Notes under the pieces: model-generated
Seen by the model: only the letters and a program-made list of their open reading frames with translations
Told to the model about the DNA's origin: nothing
The model's database searches: none
In this document: piece by piece, positions 26,784-56,769 of the stretch
How the letters are laid out: every line of letters begins with the position of its first letter
How positions within the stretch are numbered: position 1 is the stretch's first letter
Program-made: the position numbers and the translations under genes
Source: Desulfuromonas sp.
GTDB taxonomy: Bacteria > Desulfobacterota > Desulfuromonadia > Desulfuromonadales > Geothermobacteraceae
NCBI GenBank assembly: GCA_002868905.1
Contig: PKUA01000064.1
Coordinates: forward strand, 1 to 56,769
Length of the DNA: 56,769 bases
Direction of reading: 5' to 3'

Positions 26784-27341
26784 TCACGCCAGGTGCTCCC
26801 AGAGAATCTTCACCCCGATCAGGATCAGTACCACCCCGCCGCAGATTTCGACCGGAGCACCCCAGCGATCTCCGATGCGTCGGCCGAGCAGCATGCCGAC
26901 CAGGGTCAACAGGCCTGCGGTGATGCCGATGATCAGGGCCGGGTACCAGATCGAGACGCGCAGCATGGCGAGGGTAAAGCCAACTGCCAGGGCGTCAAGG
27001 CTGGTAGCAATTGAGAGCATGACCATGGTCATGCCTTTGGTGGGGTCTTTCCTGTCTCTCTCATCTTCGTGTTGAAGTGCCTCCCGGATCATTTTCCCGC
27101 CGACCAGGGTGAGCAACCCGAAGGCGAGCCAATGATCGTAGGCGGCGAGAGTCGATTGCAGGGTGGTTCCGGCCAGCCAGCCGAGAATCGGCATCAGGGC
27201 CTGGAATAGGCCGAAGTGCCAGCCGAGGCGGAACAGGTGACGGCCGGTCAGGCTTTCCAGAACCATCCCGGCACCGAGAGCGACGGCGAAAGCATCGAGG
27301 GCGAGGGCAACTGCAATGCCTAGTAGTGTCAGGGTATCCAC
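26784..27341 (-). CDS. mntP: manganese efflux pump MntP
   Basis: Inner-membrane Mn2+ exporter, 185 aa, six transmembrane segments arranged as two similar halves. The conserved acidic residue of each half is seen in 'ALALDAFAVALGAG' and 'SIATSLDALAVGFTLAM', and 'GGKMI' and 'ILIGVKILWEHL' are typical. The loop near residues 85-100 is charged ('EALQHEDERDRKDPTKG'). The upstream sequence (27342-27480, minus strand) does not match the yybP-ykoY manganese riboswitch often found before this gene. Confidence 0.92.
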   Translation of the reverse strand: MDTLTLLGIAVALALDAFAVALGAGMVLESLTGRHLFRLGWHFGLFQALMPILGWLAGTTLQSTLAAYDHWLAFGLLTLVGGKMIREALQHEDERDRKDPTKGMTMVMLSIATSLDALAVGFTLAMLRVSIWYPALIIGITAGLLTLVGMLLGRRIGDRWGAPVEICGGVVLILIGVKILWEHLA

Positions 27342-27486: not shown

Positions 27487-28278
27487 ATGATTCGTTATTT
27501 ACCGATTTTGTTGCTGGTCATTCTTGCCGTCACTACCCTTCCGAACGGCGCTTATACTATGGATGGCTGCGGCGCCGGCGAGTGCATGGAGTGCCATTCG
27601 ATCGAGAAAAGTGAAGCTCAGCAGATTTTAGCGAAAACGGGTTCTGTTGTTCTCGATGCCGATTTTGCCGAGGTCCCGGGGCTTTTTCAGGTCAATGTCG
27701 AAAAGGACGGGCAGAAGGCTACGGTCTATCTCGATTTTTCCAAACAATACCTGTTTGCAGGCCAGATCTTCAAGATCACCGATGAGGCGACCAAGCCGGA
27801 AAAGAAGGTGGAGAAATTGAGCCGGGATCAATACGATGCGATCCCGACCACGGATGCCCTGCTGCTCGGGGACCGATTGGCCGAAAAAAAGGTCATTGTT
27901 TTTACCGACCCCGAATGTCCCTACTGCATAAAACTTCACCCCGAGTTGGAAAAGGTTGTTGAGCAGGATCCGAACATCGCGTTCCTGATCAAGATGTTCC
28001 CGCTTGCTTCTCATCCGAACTCTTACGAGAAATCGAAATCAATCATTTGCAGCCAATCTTTGGACGTTCTGGAAAAAAGTTTTGCGGGGGAAAACGTTGC
28101 CGCACCGGCCTGCGAAACCGATGCCGTTGACCGGACCCTGAAATTGGTGAAGGACTATGGTATTCGCTCAACGCCGACCTTGATCCTGCCGGAAGGGACA
28201 GTCGCCCCCGGTTACCGGAAAGCCGAGGACCTGATCAACCTGATCAATGCTTTTCCTGCGGAAAGCGCCAAAGGTTGA
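27487..28278 (+). CDS. DsbC-like thiol-disulfide protein with CxxCH haem motif
   Basis: Periplasmic thioredoxin-fold protein, 263 aa. A signal peptide (about 1-24) is followed by 'CGAGECMECHS', where C33, C36 and His37 form a CxxCH c-type haem attachment motif. A DsbC-like N domain (about 45-110) and a thioredoxin domain with the active site CPYC (C144, C147) follow. The cis-proline motif is 'RSTPTLILP'. Two further cysteines occur near residues 193 and 209 ('IICSQS', 'APACETD'). DsbC proteins isomerise disulfides and help cytochrome c maturation; fusion to a haem site is unusual. GGAGGAAAG precedes the ATG. fabI lies 42 nt downstream. Confidence 0.85.
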   Translation: MIRYLPILLLVILAVTTLPNGAYTMDGCGAGECMECHSIEKSEAQQILAKTGSVVLDADFAEVPGLFQVNVEKDGQKATVYLDFSKQYLFAGQIFKITDEATKPEKKVEKLSRDQYDAIPTTDALLLGDRLAEKKVIVFTDPECPYCIKLHPELEKVVEQDPNIAFLIKMFPLASHPNSYEKSKSIICSQSLDVLEKSFAGENVAAPACETDAVDRTLKLVKDYGIRSTPTLILPEGTVAPGYRKAEDLINLINAFPAESAKG

Positions 28279-28320: not shown

Positions 28321-29088
28321 ATGAGCCTGATGCAAGGCAAGCGAGGGGTGATCTTCGGCCTCGCGAACGACAAAAGTATTGCCTGGGGGGTTGCACAGCA
28401 ACTGCACGAGGCCGGGGCGGAACTCGCTTTTACCTATCTGAACGACGCCCTGGAGAAACGGGTTCGACCGTTGGCAGAGAGCCTCGGATCGAACGTTATC
28501 CTTCCCTGCGATGTCGGGTCGGATGAGCAGATCGAAGCGGTCTTCAGCGAACTGAAGGAACGGTGGGGCAGCATTGATTTCGTCGTCCATGCGGTGGCGT
28601 TTGCCAATCGCGACGACCTCAAGAACCCTTTCCATCAGACCAGTCGCGAAGGGTTTCAACTCGCGCTCGATATCAGTGCCTACTCCCTGCTGCCGATGAC
28701 GCGGTACGCTCTTCCGCTGATGAAGGATGGCGGAAGCATTGTCACCATGTCCTACCTCGGTGCGATTCGCGCAGTCCCCGGCTACAATGTGATGGGGGTT
28801 GCCAAGGCGGCCCTTGAAGCTTCGGTCCGCTATCTCGCTTACGAGCTCGGTGCCCAGAATGTTCGGGTCAACGCTGTTTCCGCCGGGCCGATCAAGACCC
28901 TGGCGGCATCCGGGGTGGCTAATTTCAAGGAGAAACTCCGGATCATGGAGGAGCGTTCTCCACTGAAACGGCTCGTCACCCAGGATGAGGTTGGCAAGGC
29001 GACCCTGTATCTTCTCTCGGATCTCTCCTCGGCGGTCACCGGTGAAATTCATTACGTGGATGGTGGATTCAGTATTGCCGCCGGTTAA
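28321..29088 (+). CDS. fabI: enoyl-ACP reductase (NADH) FabI
   Basis: Final reductase of the fatty-acid elongation cycle, reducing trans-2-enoyl-ACP with NADH; 255 aa, SDR fold. The N-terminal cofactor motif is the FabI variant 'GLANDKSIAWG'. Catalytic Tyr155 and Lys162 (YX6K in 'YNVMGVAK') and Tyr145 are present, as is 'VNAVSAGPIKTLAASG'. AAGGAGG is 7 nt before the ATG. A terminator follows 25 nt after the stop, so fabI ends its transcript. Confidence 0.95.
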   Translation: MSLMQGKRGVIFGLANDKSIAWGVAQQLHEAGAELAFTYLNDALEKRVRPLAESLGSNVILPCDVGSDEQIEAVFSELKERWGSIDFVVHAVAFANRDDLKNPFHQTSREGFQLALDISAYSLLPMTRYALPLMKDGGSIVTMSYLGAIRAVPGYNVMGVAKAALEASVRYLAYELGAQNVRVNAVSAGPIKTLAASGVANFKEKLRIMEERSPLKRLVTQDEVGKATLYLLSDLSSAVTGEIHYVDGGFSIAAG

Positions 29089-29140: not shown

Positions 29141-29175
29141 CGTTGGTGCGGGCCTGTTCGCATGGGGTTTGTCTG

Positions 29176-30846
29176 ATGCCGGGCCTGCATGGCTCAACCA
29201 GTGGCCTTAAGGCGAGCCAGGTTCGGTCGCTCGAACGGATCTATCGCCGCCGCGTCCCCGTCGACCAGTTGATCAGCGGTGAACTTGCCCGTTTCCTGAC
29301 GGAACTTTCGTTCGAACTGCGGCGCCAGATAGGCCTGATCATCGATCGGCAGGGTGAAATCCTGCACGTCATTCTCGGTGATGACCGGGAGATCGTCATC
29401 CCCGACCTCTCGGGCTACGGTCTCGGCCGCAGTGGTCTGCGCGGCCTGCGTTGCGTCCACACCCACCTCAAGGAAGAACCACTCACCCAGGACGATATCA
29501 ACGACCTCTCCCTGTTGAGGCTCGACTTGATTGCCGCGATCGGTGTCGGCCCTGAAGGGTTTCCGGGGCGGGTCAGTTGGGCCCATCTTCTCCCTTCCAA
29601 CCGGGAAGGGGATACGGTCGAACGTCTCGAGGCTCCATCCTTCTATCAACTCGACCTAGATTTCGGCCGATTCGTAAGAGCTCTTGACGACGAACTTGAA
29701 CGCCGAATCGCCGAAACCGTCGATTTGAGCGATCAGCGGGAACGGGCGATCCTGATCTCGGTCAGCCAGCAGCCGCGGCACCTGATCGAGGAATCTCTCG
29801 ACGAGCTGACCGAGCTTGCTCGAACGGCCGACCTGCTGGTTCTCGACCGGGTGGTGCAGCGTGCCCACAAGATCCATCCCCGTTACCTGATGGGGCAGGG
29901 GAAGATTAAGGAAGTGGTTATCGGGGCTCTGCAACAGGGGGCGACCATGCTGGTGTTCGACCAGGATCTCTCGCCGTCGCAGGTTAACGCAATCGCCGAG
30001 ATCACAGAAATCAAGGTTATCGATCGGACCCAGCTGATCCTCGATATTTTTGCTCGTCGTGCCCAGTCGCGAGATGGCAAGGTCCAGGTCGAGCTCGCCC
30101 AGCTCAAATATATTCTTCCCCGCCTGACCGGTCGCGGCACCGCACTGTCCCGTCTGATGGGGGGGATCGGGGGACGTGGCCCCGGTGAGACCAAGCTGGA
30201 GATCGATCGGCGACGAATCAGGGACCGTATTTCCCGTTTGGAGAAACAGCTCGAAGGGCTCTCCCGCAGTCGTTTGCAGCGTCGGCGCAAACGGGTGCGG
30301 GCCGGGGTGCCGATCGTCTCCATCGTCGGATATACCAATGCCGGCAAATCGACCCTGCTCAACGCCTTGACCCAGAGTACAACCTTGACCGAAAACCTCC
30401 TGTTTGCCACCCTTGATACGGCGACTCGCCGCCTGCGCTTCCCCGAAGAGCGTGAGGTGATTATCACCGATACGGTCGGCTTTATCCGCCAATTGCCGAA
30501 AAGCTTGTTCGGCGCTTTTCGGGCGACCCTTGAAGAACTGGCGGATGCCGACCTGCTACTGCACCTGGTCGACGTCTCCAATCCCCGTTTTGAAGATCAG
30601 ATTGCTGCCGTCGATCGGATCCTGCTCGATCTCGACCTCGGGAGGGTGCCGAAACAGCTGGTATTCAATAAGGTCGATCTGGTTCCGGATGAAGAAGTCG
30701 GACACCTCTGCCGCCGGTTTGAAGCCATCCCCGTTTCCGCCCTGCAACGCGGAAGTTTCGAGCCGCTGCTGACCGAGATGCAGCGACGGATCTGGCCGGA
30801 TGAAAAGGCAGAGGGTGCAATTGACAACCGGGATGATTTCTTTTAG
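29176..30846 (+). CDS. hflX: GTPase HflX
   Basis: Ribosome-associated GTPase that splits stalled 70S ribosomes, 556 aa. GTPase motifs: G1 'GYTNAGKST', G3 'DTVGF', G4 'NKVD'. The HflX N domain includes 'MGQGKIKEVV' and the glycine-rich 'GGIGGRGPGETKLE' before a coiled coil ('RISRLEKQLEGLSRSR'). An extra region of about 190 residues precedes the classical N domain, longer than the 426-aa E. coli protein; this long form occurs in Geobacter relatives. ATG 29176 is chosen; only a weak GGGG lies upstream. It starts 36 nt after the fabI terminator with no obvious promoter. Followed 24 nt later by mltD. Confidence 0.92.
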   Translation: MPGLHGSTSGLKASQVRSLERIYRRRVPVDQLISGELARFLTELSFELRRQIGLIIDRQGEILHVILGDDREIVIPDLSGYGLGRSGLRGLRCVHTHLKEEPLTQDDINDLSLLRLDLIAAIGVGPEGFPGRVSWAHLLPSNREGDTVERLEAPSFYQLDLDFGRFVRALDDELERRIAETVDLSDQRERAILISVSQQPRHLIEESLDELTELARTADLLVLDRVVQRAHKIHPRYLMGQGKIKEVVIGALQQGATMLVFDQDLSPSQVNAIAEITEIKVIDRTQLILDIFARRAQSRDGKVQVELAQLKYILPRLTGRGTALSRLMGGIGGRGPGETKLEIDRRRIRDRISRLEKQLEGLSRSRLQRRRKRVRAGVPIVSIVGYTNAGKSTLLNALTQSTTLTENLLFATLDTATRRLRFPEEREVIITDTVGFIRQLPKSLFGAFRATLEELADADLLLHLVDVSNPRFEDQIAAVDRILLDLDLGRVPKQLVFNKVDLVPDEEVGHLCRRFEAIPVSALQRGSFEPLLTEMQRRIWPDEKAEGAIDNRDDFF

Positions 30847-55966: not shown

Positions 55967-56070
55967 CTTCAAAAACATTTAATCAGGATTTTATTCATCC
56001 TAGTTTTTTGCGGATGTTGAAAAATGTTCCGATTAGGCGGAACCCCAACCGAACAGCAAGGAGGCAAGTG

Positions 56071-56769
56071 ATGAAACGTAGTTGGTTGTTGGCAGCCATG
56101 ACGCTGCTGGTCGCAGGACTGACTGTCGGGCCGGCCCTGGCCGAGCAGGCAAGGATTTCGAAAGAGTCGGCGGAATGCCTGGAATGTCACCAGGAAGGCA
56201 TGCCCGGATTGATCAGCCAGTGGGAGGACAGCGCCCACTGGAACGCCGGTGTCGGCTGTTACGAATGTCACAAGGCCGAAAAGAACGACGCCGACGCGGT
56301 TGATCACAACGGCTACACTGTCGCGATTATCGTCTCACCGCGCGATTGCGGCACCTGCCACCCGAAGGAGACCGCCGAGCAGGAGGCGAGTCACCATGCC
56401 AAGGCGGGCGATATCCTCAACACCAAGGACGGCATGCTCGGTCAGACCGTCGGTGGCGAGCCGGCCGTCGCGGTCGGTTGCCGCCAGTGCCACGGTTCAA
56501 TCGTCAAGGTCAACAAGGATGGTTCCCTCGACACCAACACCTGGCCGAACACCGGTATCGGCCGCGTCAACCCGGACGGTTCCAAGGGGACCTGCTCCGC
56601 CTGCCATACCCGTCACCGCTTCAGCAAGGAGCAGGCGCGCCAGCCCGAGACCTGCGGCAAGTGCCACCTTGGTCCGGATCATCCGCAGAAGGAAGTCTAC
56701 GAAGAGTCGAAGCACGGTATTCTCTACCGCGCCTTTAAAGACGACCTGAACATGGATAAGCCGAAGTGG
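56071..56769 (+). CDS. octahaem hydroxylamine oxidoreductase-like cytochrome c (partial, 3' end beyond window)
   Basis: First 233 residues of a periplasmic multihaem cytochrome; the frame is still open at the window end. A signal peptide (about 1-25, ending 'GPALA-EQ') is followed by six CxxCH haem motifs: CLECH, CYECH, CGTCH, CRQCH, CSACH and CGKCH. The text 'TGIGRVNPDGSKGTCSACHTRHRFSKEQARQPETCGKCHLGPDHPQKEVYEESKHG' region is a clear match to the octahaem HAO/hydroxylamine-reductase family. Two more haems and the residue deciding oxidation versus reduction lie outside the window. AAGGAGG precedes the ATG. An FNR-type site about 140 bp upstream suggests anaerobic induction. Confidence 0.9.
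   Translation, partial: MKRSWLLAAMTLLVAGLTVGPALAEQARISKESAECLECHQEGMPGLISQWEDSAHWNAGVGCYECHKAEKNDADAVDHNGYTVAIIVSPRDCGTCHPKETAEQEASHHAKAGDILNTKDGMLGQTVGGEPAVAVGCRQCHGSIVKVNKDGSLDTNTWPNTGIGRVNPDGSKGTCSACHTRHRFSKEQARQPETCGKCHLGPDHPQKEVYEESKHGILYRAFKDDLNMDKPKW

Follow-up and report, generated by a model that had tools for sequence, protein, structure and literature searches.

A probable c-type haem site conserved at the N-terminus of a DsbC-like protein subfamily in Desulfobacterota

Why should a DsbC-like, presumably periplasmic disulfide isomerase carry a CxxCH motif, the hallmark of c-type haem attachment, directly behind its signal peptide? The question is raised by a gene of Desulfuromonas sp. 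lying in a 56,769-nucleotide stretch of contig PKUA01000064.1, hereafter the window (Table 1). A sequence-only reading of this DNA had described the open reading frame, placed the motif at C33-H37 and the active site at C144/C147, and identified the product as DsbC-like; its coordinates, residue numbers and assignment all proved correct. It had further proposed that the motif either couples thiol chemistry to the electron-transfer chain or acts as a handle in cytochrome c maturation. The translated protein begins with MIRYLPILLLVILAVTTLPNGAYTMDGCGAGECMECHSIEK and holds, toward its C-terminal end, a thioredoxin domain with the sequence DPECPYC.

Table 1. Position and strand of the features discussed, in window coordinates except for the last two lines; neighbour counts are lower bounds
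Feature	Position	Strand	Basis or remark
Coding sequence of the CxxCH-bearing, exported DsbC-like protein	27487..28278, stop included	+	ATG start, 263 aa
N-terminal signal peptide region, residues 1-24	27487..27558	+	By eye: basic residue, hydrophobic run
Cys28, five residues 5' of the motif	27568..27570	+	Sequence
CMECH (C33-C36-H37), proposed c-type haem attachment site	27583..27597	+	Sequence and conservation
DsbC_N-like dimerisation domain, residues 45-98	27619..27780	+	Pfam PF10411, sub-threshold
Lys86	27742..27744	+	Alignment; possible haem contact, distribution may reflect ancestry
Thioredoxin-fold catalytic domain, residues 134-252	27886..28242	+	Pfam PF13098 Thioredoxin_2
CPYC active site, C144 and C147	27916..27927	+	Sequence, alignment
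Cys188 (28048-28050) and Cys209 (28111-28113), likely structural disulfide	28048..28113	+	Alignment
MntP-type manganese efflux pump, divergent neighbour	26784..27341	-	Same kind at 37/83 CxxCH copies of the order
FabI-type enoyl-ACP reductase	28321..29088	+	At 61/83 CxxCH copies of the order
HflX-type GTPase (presumed name)	29143..30846	+	Pfam GTP-bdg_N, GTP-bdg_M, MMR_HSR1; at 60/83 order copies
TGA form, locus L203	From about base 1470 of the locus	-	Reading frame
TGA form, locus L218	From about base 309 of the locus	+	Reading frame

The window protein shares with DsbC/DsbG a probable DsbC_N-like domain followed by a thioredoxin domain, the active-site CxxC, a cis-proline loop (T229-P230, with P230 present in 242/242 aligned rows) and a second cysteine pair, C188/C209, which we take to match the structural disulfide of E. 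coli DsbC. The Thioredoxin_2 model scores 63.4 bits against a cut-off of 27, whereas DsbC_N scores 21.5 bits against a cut-off of 25 in the window protein and exceeds that cut-off in the orthologue L256 (32.6 bits). The closest solved structures by sequence are the DsbC chains 4npb and 1eej, the latter from E. coli. Unlike these, the window protein bears an N-terminal extension with CxxCH, and its alignment to the best-matching solved DsbC chains starts no earlier than residue 41, past the motif. It is a DsbC relative outside the strict equivalog, with 71.9 bits for the NCBIfam DsbC model and a cut-off of 215. Inspection of the N-terminus by eye found no lipobox preceding C28. The search of the own genome gave no second close copy, the next matches being weak (E 4.0e-9 and 3.6e-4). 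Promoter and terminator signals around the gene were about what shuffled sequence gives, and an AlphaFold2 model built from three sequences reached a mean pLDDT of only 45.5.

A C..CH pattern turns up in 0.22% of shuffles that keep the composition of the mature part; for its first 20 residues the figure is 0.016%. Since a genome-wide scan would occasionally meet such a chance match, conservation provides the real test. The passage of PMC4429474 on CxxCH screens names thioredoxin proteins as common false positives; the CxxCH of the window protein is separate from the active site and conserved in its own right, as detailed below. Searches with the window protein gave matches at E <= 1e-8 in 106 of 136 order genomes (in 103 when the limit was E <= 1e-20), at E <= 1e-15 in 214 of 277 class genomes and, at E <= 1e-10, in 124 of the 395 genomes sampled from the phylum. 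A first set of 105 full-length homologues, left from 111 matches once 6 partial or weak ones were removed, covered the order only, plus two MAG records labelled Nitrospirae (L001) and Deltaproteobacteria (L002). Both of these records carry CxxCH as well, and L002 equals L202, of the same phylum, over the matched part. The final set united every order match with 60 class loci and 65 phylum loci, the latter two picked for spread and strength; class loci were taken by place or by match, some genomes contributing two copies. Of its 261 matches, 3 were set aside as duplicates and another 16 as short or partial, which left 242 distinct full-length rows, chosen on similarity and length and not on the motif. 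Among the 16 short or partial matches, CxxCH is found in the N-terminal pieces L108, L114, L203 and L218 and not in L112, and the remaining ones are C-terminal pieces or distant thioredoxins. Tandem pairs of CxxCH-bearing DsbC genes were observed at L119, L145, L152, L183, L211 and L222.

The CxxCH stands at the same place in 200 of the 242 full-length homologues and is absent in 42, pattern and alignment column agreeing throughout. Of these 42 rows, 26 belong to the ingroup, and 16 are distant DsbC homologues, namely the weak phylum matches L236-L251, split off by locus number; none of the 16 has the motif. Thus, the sequence-only reading, which had asked for the Cys and His residues to be conserved among orthologues, holds for the 200 of 226 ingroup rows with all three residues and fails for 26 with none or one. 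The similar motifs that it ascribed to relatives were indeed found, with 68 CxxCH copies in the class outside the order of the window. Invariance of C, C and H within the 200 members is true by selection, and the informative counts lie elsewhere: in the 200/226 just given, in the absence of any row, among 242, that keeps exactly two of C33, C36 and H37, and in the 49 versions of the x positions among the 200. The first set behaved in the same all-or-none manner, with the three residues all present in 85 rows and all absent in 20. Median pairwise identity of the CxxCH set is 39.5% (4000 sampled pairs), and the only other invariant columns among its 200 members are C144, C147, P230 and G237. The active-site CxxC itself occurs in 17 forms in the alignment. 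Moreover, C188 and C209 are each lost in 67 of the 200 members, so the motif is better kept than a structural disulfide. Collectively, these alignments strongly support the CxxCH of the DsbC-like protein as a real, selected motif of haem type, and its pattern of conservation bears the signature of c-type haem attachment, in a DsbC subfamily that spans the phylum.

The rows devoid of the motif are informative too. In a FastTree phylogeny computed with the motif columns left out, the motif state changes 7 times, and 7 times again on a repeat of the analysis. Five separate motif-less lineages lie within the family. Two are clades, one of 19 rows from family f7 (support 99) and one of 4 rows from genus g64 (support 100); the others are single rows, namely L088 from family f4, the second ORF of L155, and L235. 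Such a distribution is most simply read as a series of losses. The g64 rows retain an upstream cysteine and L235 one cysteine, neither having the motif. Since several independent absences have left no two-of-three remnants, the CxxCH appears to be a unit useful only as a whole. This bears on the possibility that C33-C36 (or C28-C33) forms a second redox-active disulfide, which would shuttle electrons to CPYC by thiol exchange while H37 tunes the pKa. C-x-x-C pairs act so in other thiol proteins, but here H37 accompanies both cysteines wherever they are found, and an exported CxxCH in a genome with a System II synthase would be expected to be haem-loaded; we therefore consider a second disulfide highly improbable.

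A cysteine at most 12 residues upstream of the motif, C28 in the window protein, occurs in 172 of the 200 CxxCH members, and 7 other rows have His in the C28 column. Metal ligands sometimes interchange in this way, and C28, C33, C36 and H37 could accordingly be imagined to bind Zn, Cu or another metal and to stabilise or regulate the dimerisation domain. However, the CxxCH is complete in the 28 members that have no upstream cysteine, 13 of which (by-eye count) have no His there either, and a metal site appears quite improbable.

A synthase gene of the kind needed for haem attachment is widespread in the order. ResB (PF05140) gives 5 matches in the window's own genome and is present in 124 of the 136 genomes of the order. 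DsbD_TM gives 3 matches in the own genome, and DsbD_TM or CcdA occurs in 131 of 136 order genomes. That the CxxCH form replaces DsbD/CcdA was considered and rejected: DsbD_TM is nearly universal in the order, so its absence cannot explain this form. The predicted haem loading of the window protein follows from the motif, the export signal and the presence of the synthase, and covalent attachment of a haem to the CxxCH is, in our judgement, very likely. CxxCH copies were counted in 80 of 124 order genomes with ResB versus 2 of 12 without (Fisher p 0.0017 by hand tally, uncorrected for ancestry and draft quality).

This last association would also be expected if the motif merely mimicked an apocytochrome, docking the isomerase on the Ccs haem lyase or reporting the thiol state, with haem unnecessary. 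In line with such a handle or decoy, the motif-less genome G126 of family f4 has no match to Paired_CXXCH_1, a rough gauge of multihaem cytochromes for which up to 49 candidates were scored per genome, and a passage of PMC2700814 mentions a DsbC/DsbG of Geobacter metallireducens within an account of cytochrome c biogenesis. On the other hand, ten f4 genomes with the CxxCH form have only 0-2 Paired_CXXCH_1 matches, two of them none, and keep the motif, whereas six f14 and three f5/g7 genomes have 16-49 matches and no orthologue at E <= 1e-20 (G135, of f5/g7, being scored so from its absence among the matching genomes). Because cytochrome-poor genomes keep the motif and several cytochrome-rich genomes are without the gene, multihaem load does not explain the gene, and the proposal of a cytochrome c maturation handle in a multihaem-rich organism is weakened. 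Furthermore, no ccs, resB or cytochrome gene was recognised by eye in the 25 largest neighbour clusters, and a TlpA-like thioredoxin adjoins at least 2 of 83 order copies and 9 of 48 phylum copies. A haem-free docking role thus seems unlikely. Within the window itself, positions 56008-56769 contain the start of an ORF with six CxxCH, cut by the window end, which probably encodes a multihaem cytochrome.

The genomes of the motif-less clade f7 (L052, L053, L091, L093 and others) have no CxxCH segment on the protein; several of them retain ResB and have many Paired_CXXCH_1 matches. For instance, G030 has 46 and G109 has 44, both with ResB. Since the motif is absent in genomes such as G030 that retain ResB and many cytochromes, the haem would be dispensable for the isomerase.

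We then consider which other residues might contact the haem. No universal second axial ligand is found among the His, Met, Lys and Cys columns of the 200 CxxCH members. Besides the motif and the catalytic cysteines, the columns conserved in at least 80% are C28 (172, 86%), K86 (190, 95%), H151 (195, 97.5%) and H176 (161, 80.5%). H151 is kept by 26/26 motif-less ingroup rows and hence belongs to the isomerase. H176 was rejected as a universal distal ligand, being present in 161/200 with 5 changes on the tree; in the first alignment its loop is absent in 19 of 20 motif-less rows, which suggested co-loss, but also in 13 of 85 CxxCH rows. K86 is a lysine in 190/200 CxxCH members, 3/26 motif-less ingroup rows and 0/16 other DsbC homologues. 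Other residues take its place in the two larger motif-less clades, but the three single motif-less rows still have it and 10 CxxCH rows do not; the tree test provides five independent pairs, too few for significance (median p 0.5). K86 stays a lead as a possible haem contact.

Five-coordinate c-type haems exist, and in the absence of a conserved distal ligand the haem may be five-coordinate or variably ligated. This would suit a haem that is present but acts as a sensor of ligands or redox state, or as a stabiliser of the dimer, and not as an electron port to CPYC; the five lineages that have no motif and retain CPYC-type cysteines fit such a role too. Redox work is a simpler account of so wide and complete a conservation beside a redox enzyme, though nothing speaks directly against a sensory or structural haem, which we regard as unlikely.

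The best explanation of the whole, to which we assign a probability of roughly 0.55, is a DsbC with a single haem that would pass electrons to and from carriers in the periplasm and so set the state of CPYC. A short N-terminal extension of a periplasmic isomerase of the DsbC kind would carry one covalent c-type haem, bound by thioethers to C33 and C36, with H37 as the proximal ligand; its attachment would fall to ResB/CcsA, the cytochrome c synthase of System II. Dimerisation through the DsbC_N domain would bring together two haems and two CPYC sites. The haems would trade electrons with periplasmic cytochromes, thereby setting or resetting how oxidised or reduced the CPYC cysteines are. The DsbC of E. 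coli stays reduced through thiol exchange with DsbD; in the monohaem form, disulfide repair would be tied to the anaerobic electron-transfer chain, alongside CcdA/DsbD. E. coli DsbC and the PpcA-type cytochromes of Geobacter have similar reduction potentials, so electrons could move either way between such partners. A point against a port is that haems transfer electrons singly and disulfides need a pair, and we rate the specific role of the haem as an electron port for the thiol site somewhat short of an even chance.

Two relatives appear to differ at the active site itself. L203 (genome G462) and L218 (G505), which both retain CxxCH, show an in-frame TGA precisely where the first cysteine of the active site is encoded (DPD-TGA-PYC). 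Counted from the first base of that codon, a 7-bp hairpin begins 18 bases downstream in each, no better than in shuffles (z -1.6 and -0.65). SelA is encoded in both genomes and in all three other genomes searched; since it was found in 5/5, its presence permits and does not prove selenocysteine. These two proteins probably use selenocysteine at the active site.

The gene neighbourhood varies between the order and the rest of the class. In the order of the window the neighbours are housekeeping genes (Table 1). All neighbour counts are lower bounds, since they are limited by contig ends and by flanks that extended 1.5-3 kb. Elsewhere in the class, at least 54 of 68 copies are preceded by a sigma-54 response regulator gene (49), followed by a gene for a PilY1-like protein (39), or both, in the same orientation. 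A regulator of that neighbour cluster also adjoins at least 11 of 48 copies in the phylum set and, in the order, at least 1 of 83, and dapA/dapB lie upstream of at least 13-14 of the 48 phylum copies. Pilus-type genes (PilS/PilR-like and/or PilY1-like, minor-pilin-like) were recognised by eye on the four 19-kb stretches L254-L256 and L260; none were present on the 19-kb stretches L257 and L258 of the class. According to Pfam, L256 encodes a prepilin peptidase, a histidine kinase, a sigma-54 regulator and pilin-type N-termini, with a PilW match just under the cut-off. Pfam finds only Ig-like domains in its large protein, which nevertheless is similar to 37 of the 39 PilY1-like cluster members and contains a PNVLLLVDNSGSM motif; the large protein of L260 has a PilY1 domain. 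L260 is a motif-less copy, therefore the pilus link does not require haem. In G. sulfurreducens, the pilus cluster GSU2029-GSU2039 contains PilY1-2, and the part of PMC6964889 that describes it names no disulfide protein there.

How does the predicted protein compare with known systems? Like monohaem c-type cytochromes, it is exported (judged by eye), has CxxCH near the mature N-terminus and comes from a genome with synthase genes; unlike them, the rest of it is a disulfide isomerase and its alignment shows no universal distal ligand. CcmG, ResA and CcsX are likewise exported thioredoxin-fold proteins acting on thiols, but the window protein is of DsbC type, carries the CxxCH on the enzyme itself and has an occurrence that does not track cytochrome abundance. 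A further system is Gmet_2250, which PMC2700814 names as a DsbC/DsbG of G. metallireducens; the passage in question deals with disulfide reduction and the biogenesis of cytochrome c, gives homologues from several Geobacteraceae but not from G. sulfurreducens, and mentions no haem motif. The open-licence PMC literature gave no further mention of Gmet_2250, and its titles and abstract openings no description of a haem-bearing DsbC.

More broadly, though we rate this below an even chance, haem-wired isomerases may exist throughout the phylum, run by the anaerobic respiratory electron pool: a c-type haem on each subunit would let periplasmic cytochromes, and not CcdA/DsbD alone, reduce or oxidise the enzyme. 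Some members would use selenocysteine to sharpen the active site, and in part of the class the enzyme would serve type IV pilus/PilY1 assembly exclusively. The pilus neighbourhood would then offer a first candidate substrate. A common protein, overlooked because the library models used recognise only a thioredoxin/DsbC protein, would be added to haem inventories. If true, a haem-bearing DsbC would form a direct bridge from protein-folding chemistry to respiratory electron carriers, and the way in which anaerobes poise their periplasmic thiols would become testable.
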